Below, piece after piece: positions 4,189-32,156 of a stretch of DNA of 32,547 nucleotides. Both the position numbers and the translations under genes were made by a program. The stretch is from Treponema sp. (lineage in GTDB: Bacteria > Spirochaetota > Spirochaetia > Treponematales > Breznakiellaceae). Position 1 is the first letter of the stretch; each line of letters starts with the position of its first letter. Below the pieces are notes generated by a model, which worked only from the letters and a program-made list of their open reading frames with translations, made no database searches and was not told the DNA's origin. The stretch is taken from the NCBI GenBank assembly GCA_031272575.1, contig JAISTO010000098.1:1-32547 (forward strand). The letters run 5' to 3'.

Positions 4189-5775
4189 ATGAAAGAACGC
4201 ATTTTGATACTGGGCGCCGGCTTTTTACAGGGGCCCGCTATTCGCATCGCGCAGGACCTGGGGCTCGAGGTGACCGCCGTGGACGGGAACCCCGATGCCC
4301 CCTGCGCGGCCTGGGCCGATCGCTTCGAGGCGATCGATCTGAAAGACAAGGAGCGCATCGAGGCCCTTGCCCGGAAACTAAAGGCCCTCCCCGGGGGGCT
4401 TTCCGGCGTCATGACTTGCGGCACCGACTTTTCCGCGCCGGTCGCCTGGGTTGCGGAGCGCCTCGGCCTGCCGGGTATACCCTACGAGGCCGCGCTCGCG
4501 GCGTCGGACAAGGCGCTCATGCGGCGCGTCTTCGCGGACGCGGGGGTACCCTCGCCGGCCTTCACCGTGTGCGGCGCCCCGCCGGAGGCCCCGCCTGCCT
4601 TCGGCTTCCCCGTCGTGGTAAAGCCCTGCGACAACATGGGGGGGCGCGGCTGCCGCAAGGCCGGCTCGCTGGACGCGCTCCGCTGCGCGGTTTCCGAGGC
4701 GCTCCCCTTTTCGCGCAGCGGCCGCGTCATCGTCGAGGAGTACATGGACGGCCCTGAGTTTTCCGCGGACGCGCTTGTGTACGACGGAAAAATCACCCTC
4801 TGCGGCCTTGCGGACCGTCACATTTTCTTCCCCCCTTACTTTGTTGAAATGGGGCACACGATGCCCACGAACCTCGAAGCCGGCCGCGCGGAGGCGCTCT
4901 GTCAGGCTTTTTACCAGGGCATCCGGGCGCTCGGCATTACGCGCGGCGCGGCCAAGGGGGACCTGAAACTGACCGCCAAAGGCCCCATGATCGGGGAGAT
5001 AGCGGCGCGGCTCTCAGGCGGCTTCATGTCAGGCTGGACTTACCCCTACTCGTCCGGGGTCGAGCCTATACGCGGGGCTATCCGTATCGCGATAGGCCGC
5101 GATCCGGGCAGCCTCGCGCCGACCCGCGCGTACACGAGCGCGGAGCGGGCCTTCATCTCGCTGCCGGGAAAAATCCGCGCCATTGAGGGAGTCGAACGCG
5201 CGCGCGCGGTGCCGGGGCTGCGGGAGTTTTCGCTGCGGGTTTCGGCAGGCTCCCGCGTCAGTTTCCCGGAAAACAATGTGAGCAAGTGCGGCAACGCCGT
5301 CTCCTGCCGCGAGCGGCGGGACGACGCCATCTTCGCGGCGGAGGAAGCCGCTCGCCGCGTGCTGATTCGCCTCGAAGCGCCTGATCCGGAGACCGCGGCC
5401 TTCCTCGCGAAACTTCCCTCGCAGGCCCCCACGTTCCCGCCCGACGCCTTTTCGGTGTCCTGGCGCTGCATCGAGGCCGTCTCCGCGCTTCCGCCCGAGG
5501 CCCCCGATCTCGCGGAACGCATCGCGCGGGGGGAAAAGCCGCTCATCCTCGAGGCCGCGGAGGTGCTCGCCTCAGGCGCGCGTGACATCGTGGGCCGCGG
5601 CGTGGAGGAATCGCTCGAAAGCGTCCGCGCACTCACGGGCCTCGCCCTGCCGCTTACCGCATCCCCGGGAGGCGCTCCCGCGTTCGCCCGCGGCTTCTGG
5701 CAGGCCCTCCTGCGCGGCGGCTATCAGGGCGCAGCCTACCTGGTGGACCTGCTCGGCGCGCAAAAAGATCCATGA
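4189..5775 (+). CDS. ATP-grasp family carboxylate-amine ligase (carbamoyl-phosphate-synthase-like)
   Basis: N-terminal Rossmann-like ILILGAGFLQGPAI; ATP-grasp FPVVVKPCDNMGGRGCRKA; ~200-aa C-terminal extension. Confidence 0.8.
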   Translation: MKERILILGAGFLQGPAIRIAQDLGLEVTAVDGNPDAPCAAWADRFEAIDLKDKERIEALARKLKALPGGLSGVMTCGTDFSAPVAWVAERLGLPGIPYEAALAASDKALMRRVFADAGVPSPAFTVCGAPPEAPPAFGFPVVVKPCDNMGGRGCRKAGSLDALRCAVSEALPFSRSGRVIVEEYMDGPEFSADALVYDGKITLCGLADRHIFFPPYFVEMGHTMPTNLEAGRAEALCQAFYQGIRALGITRGAAKGDLKLTAKGPMIGEIAARLSGGFMSGWTYPYSSGVEPIRGAIRIAIGRDPGSLAPTRAYTSAERAFISLPGKIRAIEGVERARAVPGLREFSLRVSAGSRVSFPENNVSKCGNAVSCRERRDDAIFAAEEAARRVLIRLEAPDPETAAFLAKLPSQAPTFPPDAFSVSWRCIEAVSALPPEAPDLAERIARGEKPLILEAAEVLASGARDIVGRGVEESLESVRALTGLALPLTASPGGAPAFARGFWQALLRGGYQGAAYLVDLLGAQKDP

Positions 5776-6773
5776 GCAACAAAACCCTGCTCAACGCAGG
5801 CAAGGCGAAGAATGACGAGTTTTATACCCAACTCCCGGATATAGAGCGGGAATGCGCCCATTACACAGAACAGTTTCAGGGGAAGACTGTTCTGTGTAAC
5901 TGCGACGATCCGGCGGAGAGTCAATTTTGGAAATACTTTCATACGCATTTTTCAGAATTGAAATTAAAAAAACTCATCTCGACTCATTTTGATCCTGAGG
6001 GTACCTACAGGATGGACTACAGCGGGGGCAGCGACGCGCGCTGCGGCATTGGCACAAAAATCTCCATGCAGGGAAATGGAGATTTTAGAAGTAACGAATG
6101 CGCCGGGGTTTTGCGGCAGGCGGATATCGTCGTTACCAATCCGCCGTTTTCGCTCTTCCGCGAATTCATCGCGCAGTTGATAACCTACGGCAAAAAGTTT
6201 CTTGTCATCGGCAACAACAATGCGCTCACGTACAAAGAAATTTTCAGGTTGATAAAAGAAAACAAATTGTGGCTCGGGTACAACGTCAACAAAACAATCG
6301 CGTTTGTTTTGAGCGGCGCTTACCAGGTGTGGGACAGAATAGAAAACGGCAAAAAGATAGGCGTAGTTCCCGCGATTTCATGGTACACCAATTTGACGGT
6401 TTCAAAACGCGCCCTGCCGCTCGCTCTTTCCCGGCATTACGATCCCGCCCTATATCCGAAGTACGATTCTTACGACGCTATCAATGTAAAAAGGGTGACG
6501 GAGATCCCCGCCGATTGGGACGGCAAGATGGGAGTGCCCGTCACTTTTCTGGGGAAATACAATCCCGCGCAATTTGAGATAATTGGGTTAGACAGATATG
6601 TCGACGACAACCCGCGCTTCGGGAGGAGGTTCACGATCAACAATAAAGAGACGTATGCCCGTGTGTTGATCAGGCGCCGCCCCCCGAATGAAAGCGGCGC
6701 GGGCTGCCGCGCTATTGTTTCGCATCCTGCCCGAAACTCTCCGGCACATCCAGGAGTGAATACCCCATCATAA
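5772..6773 (+). CDS. M.EcoRI-like adenine-specific DNA methyltransferase
   Basis: N-terminus NKTLLNAGKAKNDEFYTQLPDIEREC..VLCNCDDP resembles the EcoRI methylase family; catalytic NPPF (VVTNPPFSLFREF). ATGA overlap with the upstream ATP-grasp stop. Confidence 0.88.
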   Translation: MSNKTLLNAGKAKNDEFYTQLPDIERECAHYTEQFQGKTVLCNCDDPAESQFWKYFHTHFSELKLKKLISTHFDPEGTYRMDYSGGSDARCGIGTKISMQGNGDFRSNECAGVLRQADIVVTNPPFSLFREFIAQLITYGKKFLVIGNNNALTYKEIFRLIKENKLWLGYNVNKTIAFVLSGAYQVWDRIENGKKIGVVPAISWYTNLTVSKRALPLALSRHYDPALYPKYDSYDAINVKRVTEIPADWDGKMGVPVTFLGKYNPAQFEIIGLDRYVDDNPRFGRRFTINNKETYARVLIRRRPPNESGAGCRAIVSHPARNSPAHPGVNTPS

Positions 6774-7548
6774 AGAGCGCCGCTTCAAGCGCTCTTATGC
6801 GGTGTTTGGGGGGGTACTTGTTGAACTGCGACCGCGGGGCTTTTTCCAGCACCGCTTCGAGCAGCCAACTTGCCTCGACGGTACGACGGACACGCTGCTT
6901 CCTGCTTGTAAAGGGCGGGAATTTGTACTGCCCTTTGTTCGGATTGTTGTTCCCGGCGAGATTCCCATACCCCCAGGGAAAACTGATGGGATAGGGAACA
7001 GCGCTGAGTTTGTTTTCTTCGCAAAAACTGCGCACGAGCAGACACAAGCCCGCCCCGACTCTGCTCCCGTACATTACGAAGCCGTCGACAAGGAGCGCGT
7101 AGATTTTTATCCACGTCGAATTGGAGTTGACTTCGGTAATGTCCCGCTCCGTGTCGAAGGCGCGCAGGTTGAGAATTTTCACGGCCGTCTTCAACTGCGG
7201 TACCAGTTTGCCGCTGCTCGTGAAACGTTCCGGCTGCCCGAAACGGATTTCCCCCCAGTGGTGAATTGTTTCACAGAGGGCCGCGGTTTTTTTCGCGTCG
7301 TTTTTCGCGAGCGCTTTTTTTAATTCCGCGGAATAGAAATCACGTTCCTTCAGGAACTCCGCGAAATCTTTGTGCTGAAAATCGTACTGCGATACCGCGT
7401 CGAAGAGCGATTCAAAACGCAAAACTTTTTTCTGCCGCTTCATAAGATACGAATGCGGAAACGGCGCGTGTTCCGCATCGAGCCGCTTTGCCATCCAGCC
7501 GATGAAATTCTTCACGACGGAAAGGTCGAGATACTGCTCCCGTGTCAT
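6712..7548 (-). CDS. Uncharacterised protein convergent with the M.EcoRI-like methyltransferase
   Basis: 278-aa ORF with strong SD (GAGGAGG), a -35/-10 promoter, and composition matching the adjacent methyltransferase; no family recognised. Confidence 0.75.
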   Translation of the reverse strand: MTREQYLDLSVVKNFIGWMAKRLDAEHAPFPHSYLMKRQKKVLRFESLFDAVSQYDFQHKDFAEFLKERDFYSAELKKALAKNDAKKTAALCETIHHWGEIRFGQPERFTSSGKLVPQLKTAVKILNLRAFDTERDITEVNSNSTWIKIYALLVDGFVMYGSRVGAGLCLLVRSFCEENKLSAVPYPISFPWGYGNLAGNNNPNKGQYKFPPFTSRKQRVRRTVEASWLLEAVLEKAPRSQFNKYPPKHRIRALEAALFMMGYSLLDVPESFGQDAKQ

Positions 7549-7569
7549 AGTTCCTCCTCGATTGATGCT

Positions 7570-7598
7570 ATGTTATCATATTAGAGAAAATGTGTCAA
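7570..7598 (-). promoter_or_regulatory. Promoter of the 7548 minus-strand gene: TTGACA, 17-nt spacer, TAACAT
   Basis: Reverse complement of TGTCAA (7593-7598) and ATGTTA (7570-7575); G9 (C9 on minus) 2 nt upstream of the -35. Confidence 0.75.
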
Positions 7599-7613
7599 GA
7601 GGGGGGGGGAGCA

Positions 7614-7832
7614 GCAGCAATTCTCAGAAGTGAAAACAGTCCACAGATAATCACCGATTTTCACCAATTAAAGGCACGATTAGTAATAAAAAATCTGTGT
7701 TTATTTGTGTAAATCTGTGGACAAATTTTTAATGTTAACTTTTTCGGAGTGGGCTCAGTTTTATTCCTCCGTGTTCTTTGTGTGCTTTGTGAGAAAATTT
7801 TCCCAAAATTCGGTCAAAATGAGAACTGCTGC
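7614..7832. mobile_element. Candidate MITE-like intergenic element, 219 bp, with 13-bp TIRs (1 mismatch)
   Basis: GCAGCAATTCTCA at 7614-7626 and TGAGAACTGCTGC at 7820-7832; internal 10-bp inverted repeat GTCCACAGAT (7639-7648) / ATCTGTGGAC (7713-7722); box TTTTCGGAGTGGGCTCA (7741-7757) shared with 32126-32142. Confidence 0.55.
7691..7720. repeat. Three degenerate 10-mers AAATCTGTGT / TTATTTGTGT / AAATCTGTGG
   Basis: Direct reading; contiguous 10-nt register. Confidence 0.8.
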
Positions 7833-7891
7833 AAAACGCCACTCCCTACTCACCCTTCCCATTACGGCGCCGCATACGCTATACTGTCAGC

Positions 7892-9316
<1,425 letters not shown>

Positions 9317-30270: not shown

Positions 30271-30282
30271 CAGCAATTCTCA
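30271..30282 (-). repeat. Solo copy of the TGAGAATTGCTG box, 9 nt upstream of a -35
   Basis: Exact 12-mer identity (as CAGCAATTCTCA) with 7615-7626 and, in the other orientation, 32145-32156. Confidence 0.85.
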
Positions 30283-30355
30283 TTACCTCTCACAAAGGCA
30301 CAGAAGGGGTTGCTCGCTGGTGATGCCTCCCCTCCCCGCTTCCGGATCACGCACA

Positions 30356-31952: not shown

Positions 31953-32156
31953 CAGCAATTTGAGTCTACTCTGAAAAGTCAGCAATTAAGTAAGTAAACG
32001 CGAATGGTGGGCAACTTTGTTGCCCCCGAATTATCACGAATAATACCACATACAATTCTTAAAATTCGCGTTCATTCGTGTAATTCGCGGACCGCATTTA
32101 TGCGGCAAATTCTTGAATTCTTGACTTTTCGGAGGGGGCTCAAATGAGAATTGCTG
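31953..32156. mobile_element. Candidate MITE-like intergenic element, 204 bp, imperfect ~28-34 bp TIRs
   Basis: Left end CAGCAATTTGAGTCTACTCTGAAAAGTC (31953-31980) is the inverted relative of right end GACTTTTCGGAGGGGGCTCAAATGAGAATTGCTG (32123-32156), with a 6-nt indel; CCCCCTTGACA occurs as a direct repeat at 31944-31954 and 32168-32178. Confidence 0.55.
32009..32025. repeat. Perfect hairpin GGGCAAC-TTT-GTTGCCC
   Basis: 7-bp perfect stem, 3-nt loop, inside the 31953-32156 element. Confidence 0.85.

Follow-up and report, generated by a model that had tools for sequence, protein, structure and literature searches.

A Probable Composite of Nested MITE-like Elements between Divergent Promoters in a Treponema sp. 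Genome

Locus and Layout of the Element

The window, i.e., the whole 32,547-nt stretch of Treponema sp. DNA that was analysed, carries at 5772-6773 (plus strand) a gene for an EcoRI-type adenine methyltransferase (Pfam EcoRI_methylase, E 5e-109) and, convergent with it at 6712-7548 (minus strand), a gene for a 278-aa protein with no Pfam or PDB match, a candidate for the partner restriction enzyme of the methyltransferase. Between this minus-strand gene and the divergent ahcY lies a 219-nt element, described in a sequence-only reading of the stretch as MITE-like and, if mobile, non-autonomous (Table 1). Its motifs were located within a base or two of where that reading had placed them: the 13-bp terminal inverted repeats (TIRs) with one mismatch (12/13 complementary), the perfect 10-bp inverted repeat GTCCACAGAT/ATCTGTGGAC, the three CTGTG-type decamers, and the box TTTTCGGAGTGGGCTCA at 7741-7757. 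Neither the transposase gene, whose absence had been noted, nor any other convincing gene was found within 7614-7832; the sole ORF overlapping the element is incidental and runs out into ahcY. In 3.7 kb the 13-bp ends on their own do not exceed chance, as 0-3 inverted repeats of 13 bp with up to 1 mismatch and the same spacing occurred in the dinucleotide-shuffled sequence, and the fold of the 219 nt is modestly better than that of shuffles (z about -2.1). The element is counted as real because its ends recur genome-wide, and not because of the local repeat or fold.

Table 1. Coordinates of the element, its parts, the adjoining promoter-like sites, and the other copies in the window.
Feature	Position	Strand	Remarks
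Putative whole composite element (outer MITE and nested element)	7614-7832	.	BLAST matches and TIR pairs genome-wide
Left TIR of the outer element, GCAGCAATTCTCA	7614-7626	+	core CAGCAATTCTCA at 7615-7626
Outer left-arm remnant, GAAGTGAAAA	7627-7636	+	comparison with intact copies
Nested module, CACAGAT decamer hairpin	7637-7736	+	arms 7639-7648/7713-7722, decamers 7693-7722, conserved loop 7661-7689
Terminal box AACTTTTTCGGAGTGGGCTC (nested element, right end)	7737-7756	+	127 matches in the genome (≤3 mismatches)
Outer element, right arm, AGTTTTATTCCTCCGTGTTCTTTGTGTGCTTTGTGAGA...GTCAAAA	7757-7819	+	the "60 extra nt" of the sequence-only reading
Right TIR, TGAGAACTGCTGC	7820-7832	-	
Promoter-like site of the minus-strand gene	7570-7598	-	TTGACA/TAACAT, 10/12, outward; -35 begins ~16 bp outside the left end
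Promoter-like site of ahcY	7856-7885	+	TTCCCA/TATACT, 9/12, outward; -35 begins ~24 bp outside the right end
Second copy	31953-32156	.	same TIR; nested box element with ACGCGAAT hairpin and mini-palindromes; outer arms lost
Third copy, truncated	30271-30301	+	left end and start of the left arm only (CAGCAATTCTCATTACCTCTCACAAAGGCAC)

The second copy, at 31953-32156, has a fold z of -6.8, and a promoter with TTGACA lies 16 bp beyond its right TIR. The 60-nt excess of the 7614-7832 copy over this one, pointed out in the sequence-only reading for positions 7758-7819, corresponds to the outer right arm, the difference arising because the second copy has lost its outer arms. Short perfect or near-perfect palindromes (CGCAACGAAGTTGCG, GGGCAACTTTGTTGCCC, GGCGATATATCGCC, and CCGCATTTATGCGG) are present at 32009-32025 and 32092-32105, as well as at many other loci of the genome; their positions inside the hairpin arms vary, and they are possibly a further layer of very small inserts.

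The Outer Element and Its Recurrence in the Genome

The genome assembly comprises 2.30 Mb in 226 contigs and is 75% complete, with contigs breaking at repeats. For a MITE, conserved ends and variable interiors would be expected in several intergenic copies, and nine copies with both ends close together were found, along with many single ends. The 13-mer is not rare in this genome: 12 exact and 23 one-mismatch matches give 35 at up to one mismatch, and 58 matches at up to two mismatches were found vs. 23 for the reversed control. The box of the nested element gave 6 matches for its reversed control at the threshold used in Table 1, and a BLAST search with a 246-nt query yielded 71 matches. The nine paired copies, with spans of 40, 73, 131, 136, 217, 227, 239, 264, and 297 bp measured between the outer edges of the 12-bp cores, have their ends in common and differ in their interiors. 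Two of them, of 131 and 136 bp (contigs C10 and C111), are uninterrupted and define the outer element, whose consensus CAGCAATTCTCATTTTACCTCTCACAAAGGCACAAAGAAGTGAAAAAAGTTTTATTCCTCCGTGTTCTTTGTGTGCTTTGTGAGAGATTTTTCCCAAAATTCTGTCAAACTGAGAATTGCTG was composed by eye from these two copies. It is an element of about 130 bp with the TIR CAGCAATTCTCA, CACAAAG/CTTTGTG repeats that pair as a hairpin, an A/T-rich loop, and no gene; the 40-bp (C13) and 73-bp (C225) copies are internal deletions that keep both ends. As in other MITEs, the TIRs are common to the copies, which are short (40-297 bp) and without a transposase gene.

Another repeat family of the same genome, CTAAACTTGTCCCATA, with 82 end matches vs. 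0 for the control, consists of near-identical, contig-breaking repeats of about 300 bp bounded by C[TA]AACTTGTCCCATA...TATGGGACAAGTT[TA]G (e.g., C169:4451-4748, locus L018). It carries both of the inner hairpins described below, and its flanks fit an IS630-type TA duplication in CTAG; a DDE_3 transposase is not present in the assembly.

Insertion of One Element into Another

Within the loop of the hairpin-forming outer MITE (CAGCAATTCTCA...TGAGAATTGCTG) lies a second element (GAGYCYACTCCGAAAA...TTTTCGGAGTGGGCTC). The empty site, GTGAAAAA(A)GTTTTATT, is seen in five uninterrupted outer copies, the left junction GTGAAAAAAGTT|GAG in four copies, and the right junction CTCA|GTTTTATT, or slightly mutated variants of it, in six, including that at 7614-7832; the five uninterrupted copies and ten junctions define one exact insertion site. 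The empty site is restored when the flanks are joined, and the duplicated bases are AGTT for an inner element ending in GAG...CTC or GT for one ending in TGAG...CTCA, so that filled and empty sites are both at hand for the inner element within outer copies. AGTT, the duplicated target, also forms the first bases of the outer right arm in the copy at 7614-7832. The MITE-like character claimed for the locus was upheld, and its description as a single element was not, as at least two MITEs are nested here.

The inner element ends in GAGYCYACTCCGAAAA and contains one of two types of hairpin, the CACAGAT type in the 7614-7832 copy, C150, and C42, and the ACGCGAAT type in C97 and the copy at 31953-32156; in several copies 15-nt palindromes such as CGCAACGAAGTTGCG are located inside the inner hairpin. 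The presence of different inner types at the same site means that the site is a hot spot or that the inner parts were swapped by recombination. In the 7614-7832 copy GAAGTGAAAA and then CAGTCCACAG come immediately after the left TIR, and TTTTACCTCTCACAAAGGCACAAA, found at the left-arm position in C10, C97, and C110, is missing; the inner element's left end and the greater part of the outer left arm are gone. On its right side, which is intact, the inner box reaches 7756, AGTTTTATTCC... and the outer right arm come next, and the right TIR closes the copy. This copy is rearranged and partly deleted, and no 9-bp target duplication is recognisable at its flanks.

Flank Duplications, Lineage Range, and Transposase

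Among the nine paired copies, a 9-bp flank repeat is perfect (9/9) at C42 (CAAGGGGGC) and nearly so (8/9) at C10, and the flanks of C15 are similar, as judged by eye, with a one-base shift; a clear duplication is absent from most of the nine. When flanks were re-paired by permutation, the sum of flank matches over the nine copies had p = 0.003, and the occurrence of two copies at 8/9 or better had p = 0.014. When 120 genomes of the family were searched with a 29-nt probe spanning the outer end and the left arm, ten matches fell in the own genome, and the other 119, which include no genome of the same genus, had none. Judging from probe matches confined to the own genome, the outer element family looks recent and lineage-specific. 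Upstream of ahcY no such element was seen in five relatives, whose orthologues are not strict empty sites because their upstream neighbours differ.

A search for DDE_Tnp_1 in the own genome returned only a 125-aa fragment at a contig end, with these TIRs not nearby, and a DDE_3 search gave no match; absence of a transposase from this 75% complete assembly says little because contigs break at repeats.

Adjacency to Promoters

Each end of the 7614-7832 copy lies, as had been claimed, just outside a predicted promoter (Table 1), and this adjacency is a property of the element family, not of this locus alone. An outward sigma-70-like site (at least 9/12, within 70 bp of the end) is located near 14 of the 36 distinct ends, compared with no inward sites and 1.9% for random stretches of the same loci; several of the 14 have members of a single paralogous gene family downstream, so not all are independent. 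Widening the search to 150 bp added no ends. In 11 of the 14 the -35 box begins 3-24 bp from the end, and a promoter that close was found at none of the 41 ends of the CTAAACTTGTCCCATA family (Fisher p = 9e-5), the 24-bp cut having been chosen after the data were seen; over the whole range the comparison is 14/36 vs. 6/41 (p = 0.015). That second family lacks close promoters, an argument against compact intergenic space being the sole explanation of the adjacency, which may reflect target choice rather than survival. A MITE placed almost against host -35 boxes could alter the expression of many genes.

At loci L214-L221 the members of a paralogous gene family have a common upstream stretch (CTTGTCCCCTTGACTTTTTCCAGG); its upstream boundary falls at copies of the element that differ and are partly truncated, which suggests recombination at the repeats.

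Origin of the Composite

The element at 7614-7832 is likely to be a copy of a lineage-specific, non-autonomous MITE-like element that has become composite. The outer element would be mobilised in trans by a transposase, presumably of the DDE type, cutting at the CAGCAATTCTCA ends and duplicating 9 bp, and its ends often adjoin the upstream edge of promoters. The second element, with ends GAGYCYACTCCGAAAA, would have inserted into the outer hairpin loop with duplication of AGTT (or GT), bringing the CACAGAT decamer hairpin into the outer element, and in other copies the CGCAACGAAGTTGCG palindromes lie inside that hairpin. Later, the copy at 7614-7832 would have been trimmed of the greater part of its left arm and of the inner element's left end. 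The composite presumably moves as a unit.

Recombination and hairpin template switching among a few ancestral inserts, with little transposition at present, could also have generated such composites, as the inverted left-arm segment in the C148 copy, the broken right end and the downstream gene family that C110 and C129 have in common, and the occupation of one site by either CACAGAT- or ACGCGAAT-type inner elements would suggest. Given that two copies have 9-bp duplications that are perfect or nearly so and that most copies have unrelated flanks, it is an unlikely account, and recombination probably adds to transposition rather than replacing it. A fixed, non-mobile control module of the flanking genes, whether an insulator, a binding array, or an RNA structure, would fit ends lying close outside two -35 boxes in a family that hugs promoters, and the helically phased 10-bp repeats resemble protein sites; it is quite improbable given the same ends beside unrelated genes, the very different interiors, the flank duplications at two copies, the absence of the end-and-arm probe sequence from the family genomes, and the relatives inspected that lack the element upstream of ahcY. 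Less probable still is a REP/BIME-like palindrome mobilised by a Y1 transposase of the RAYT type with no target duplication, which shares the palindromic, intergenic, high-copy, and mosaic architecture, since the aligned ends, read directly, have no GTAG or CGTC tag, the elements measure 130-300 bp instead of 20-40 bp, and a DDE mechanism better accounts for TIR-bounded copies with 9-bp flank repeats.

Relation to Known Small Elements

Bacterial MITEs (PMC10969869; PMC2229807) resemble the family described here in having TIRs and no transposase gene, in being A+T-rich, hairpin-forming, intergenic, multicopy, and 40-300 bp long, and in showing flank duplications in some copies. The family differs from them generally in consisting of two nested elements with ends concentrated at promoter edges, and it matches no known MITE family by sequence. 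The BrickBuilt MITE of Porphyromonas gingivalis (PMC4596501) is likewise lineage-specific and intergenic, with short terminal repeats and internal tandem repeats; its units are 23-nt tandem ones, whereas here 9-10-nt inverted units form a hairpin and there is a nested insertion. YPAL/RU-2 of Yersinia (PMC2229807) inserts at or next to dyad symmetry, as does the inner element in its hairpin loop, and the pneumococcal RUP (PMC2229807), like the inner element, inserts in other elements; RUP has also been linked to an IS630 element with a TA target (PMC2229807), similarly to the family with C[TA]AACTTGTCCCATA ends. No sequence relation to YPAL or RUP is claimed, and the duplications here are of 9 bp (outer) and 2-4 bp (inner). 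REP, BIME, and REPIN sequences are also high-copy intergenic palindromes arranged in mosaics; the elements in the window are longer and TIR-bounded.

Several other readings were rejected. Derivation from IS630 would entail a TA duplication at a CTAG target, which the 7614-7832 element does not show. A DnaA-box reading of the hairpin ends (TTATCCACA) fits many copies, but others read TAGTCCACA or TTGTCCACA. A terminator does not fit either, as there is no terminator-like site at 7400-8000 and the copy lies between divergent genes.

Rfam gave no match at the gathering threshold for the window and 13 related loci, and no description of these repeats was found in the literature searched by repeat strings and by MITE, termite, and spirochaete terms; the one string match in the literature was just a PCR primer beside a Bacteroides promoter. 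As far as Rfam and the literature show, the composite of nested small elements appears to be new in sequence. Its promoter-edge placement is unusual, and nesting, placement, and a cross-phylum hairpin together exceed a routine new MITE. It is a clear case of small elements nesting in each other's hairpin loops.

The Inner Hairpin beyond This Genome

A strict CACAGAT/CACGGAT hairpin pattern, with about 30 specified bases and hence essentially no chance matches, was found in 98 stretches of the genome collection. Among 297 Spirochaetia genomes, a strict symmetric CACAAAG pattern was found in 2, one with about a dozen copies, and the CACAGAT pattern in none; these two patterns under-count, because the own genome was missed by both. 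The CACAGAT hairpin is scattered among bacteria of at least six phyla, several single genomes having many copies: Spirochaetota (Treponema and other Spirochaetaceae), Acidobacteriota (Acidobacteria, Pyrinomonadaceae), Chloroflexota (Anaerolineae), Verrucomicrobiota (Victivallales and others), Bacteroidota (Prevotellaceae, Porphyromonadaceae), and Proteobacteria (Chromatiales and other Gammaproteobacteria, Gallionellales, Kiloniellales). Viral contigs had no match to the strict hairpin pattern, and the plasmid collection gave weak or scattered matches only. A related TCTCACAAAG hairpin is present in about a dozen copies, without CAGCAATTCTCA ends, in a genome of the same family (G029).

The hairpins have a wider distribution, and probably a greater age, than the element at 7614-7832, which looks like a local vehicle for them. 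Tentatively, the inner hairpin TCCACAGAT-NN-ACACAGAT-...-ATCTGTGT-NN-ATCTGTGGA, built of 10-bp phased units in inverted arms, might represent a widespread and apparently undescribed class of small dispersed elements that spreads across phyla and here rides inside promoter-edge-directed MITEs. The cross-phylum hairpins may be homologous or convergent through a common binding protein. The inner module raises the question of what mobilises or retains one 10-bp-phased hairpin in phyla unrelated to one another. By crude gene calls, the cross-phylum hairpins (loci L085-L182) are located 50 times between same-strand, 11 times between convergent, and 9 times between divergent genes, often within about 20 bp of both a stop codon and the next start codon. 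It is also worth noting that in the Prevotellaceae MAG Pcl387_bin80 (L106, L131, and L158) up to six CACAGAT hairpins form tandem arrays with a period of about 80 bp and short alternating spacers.
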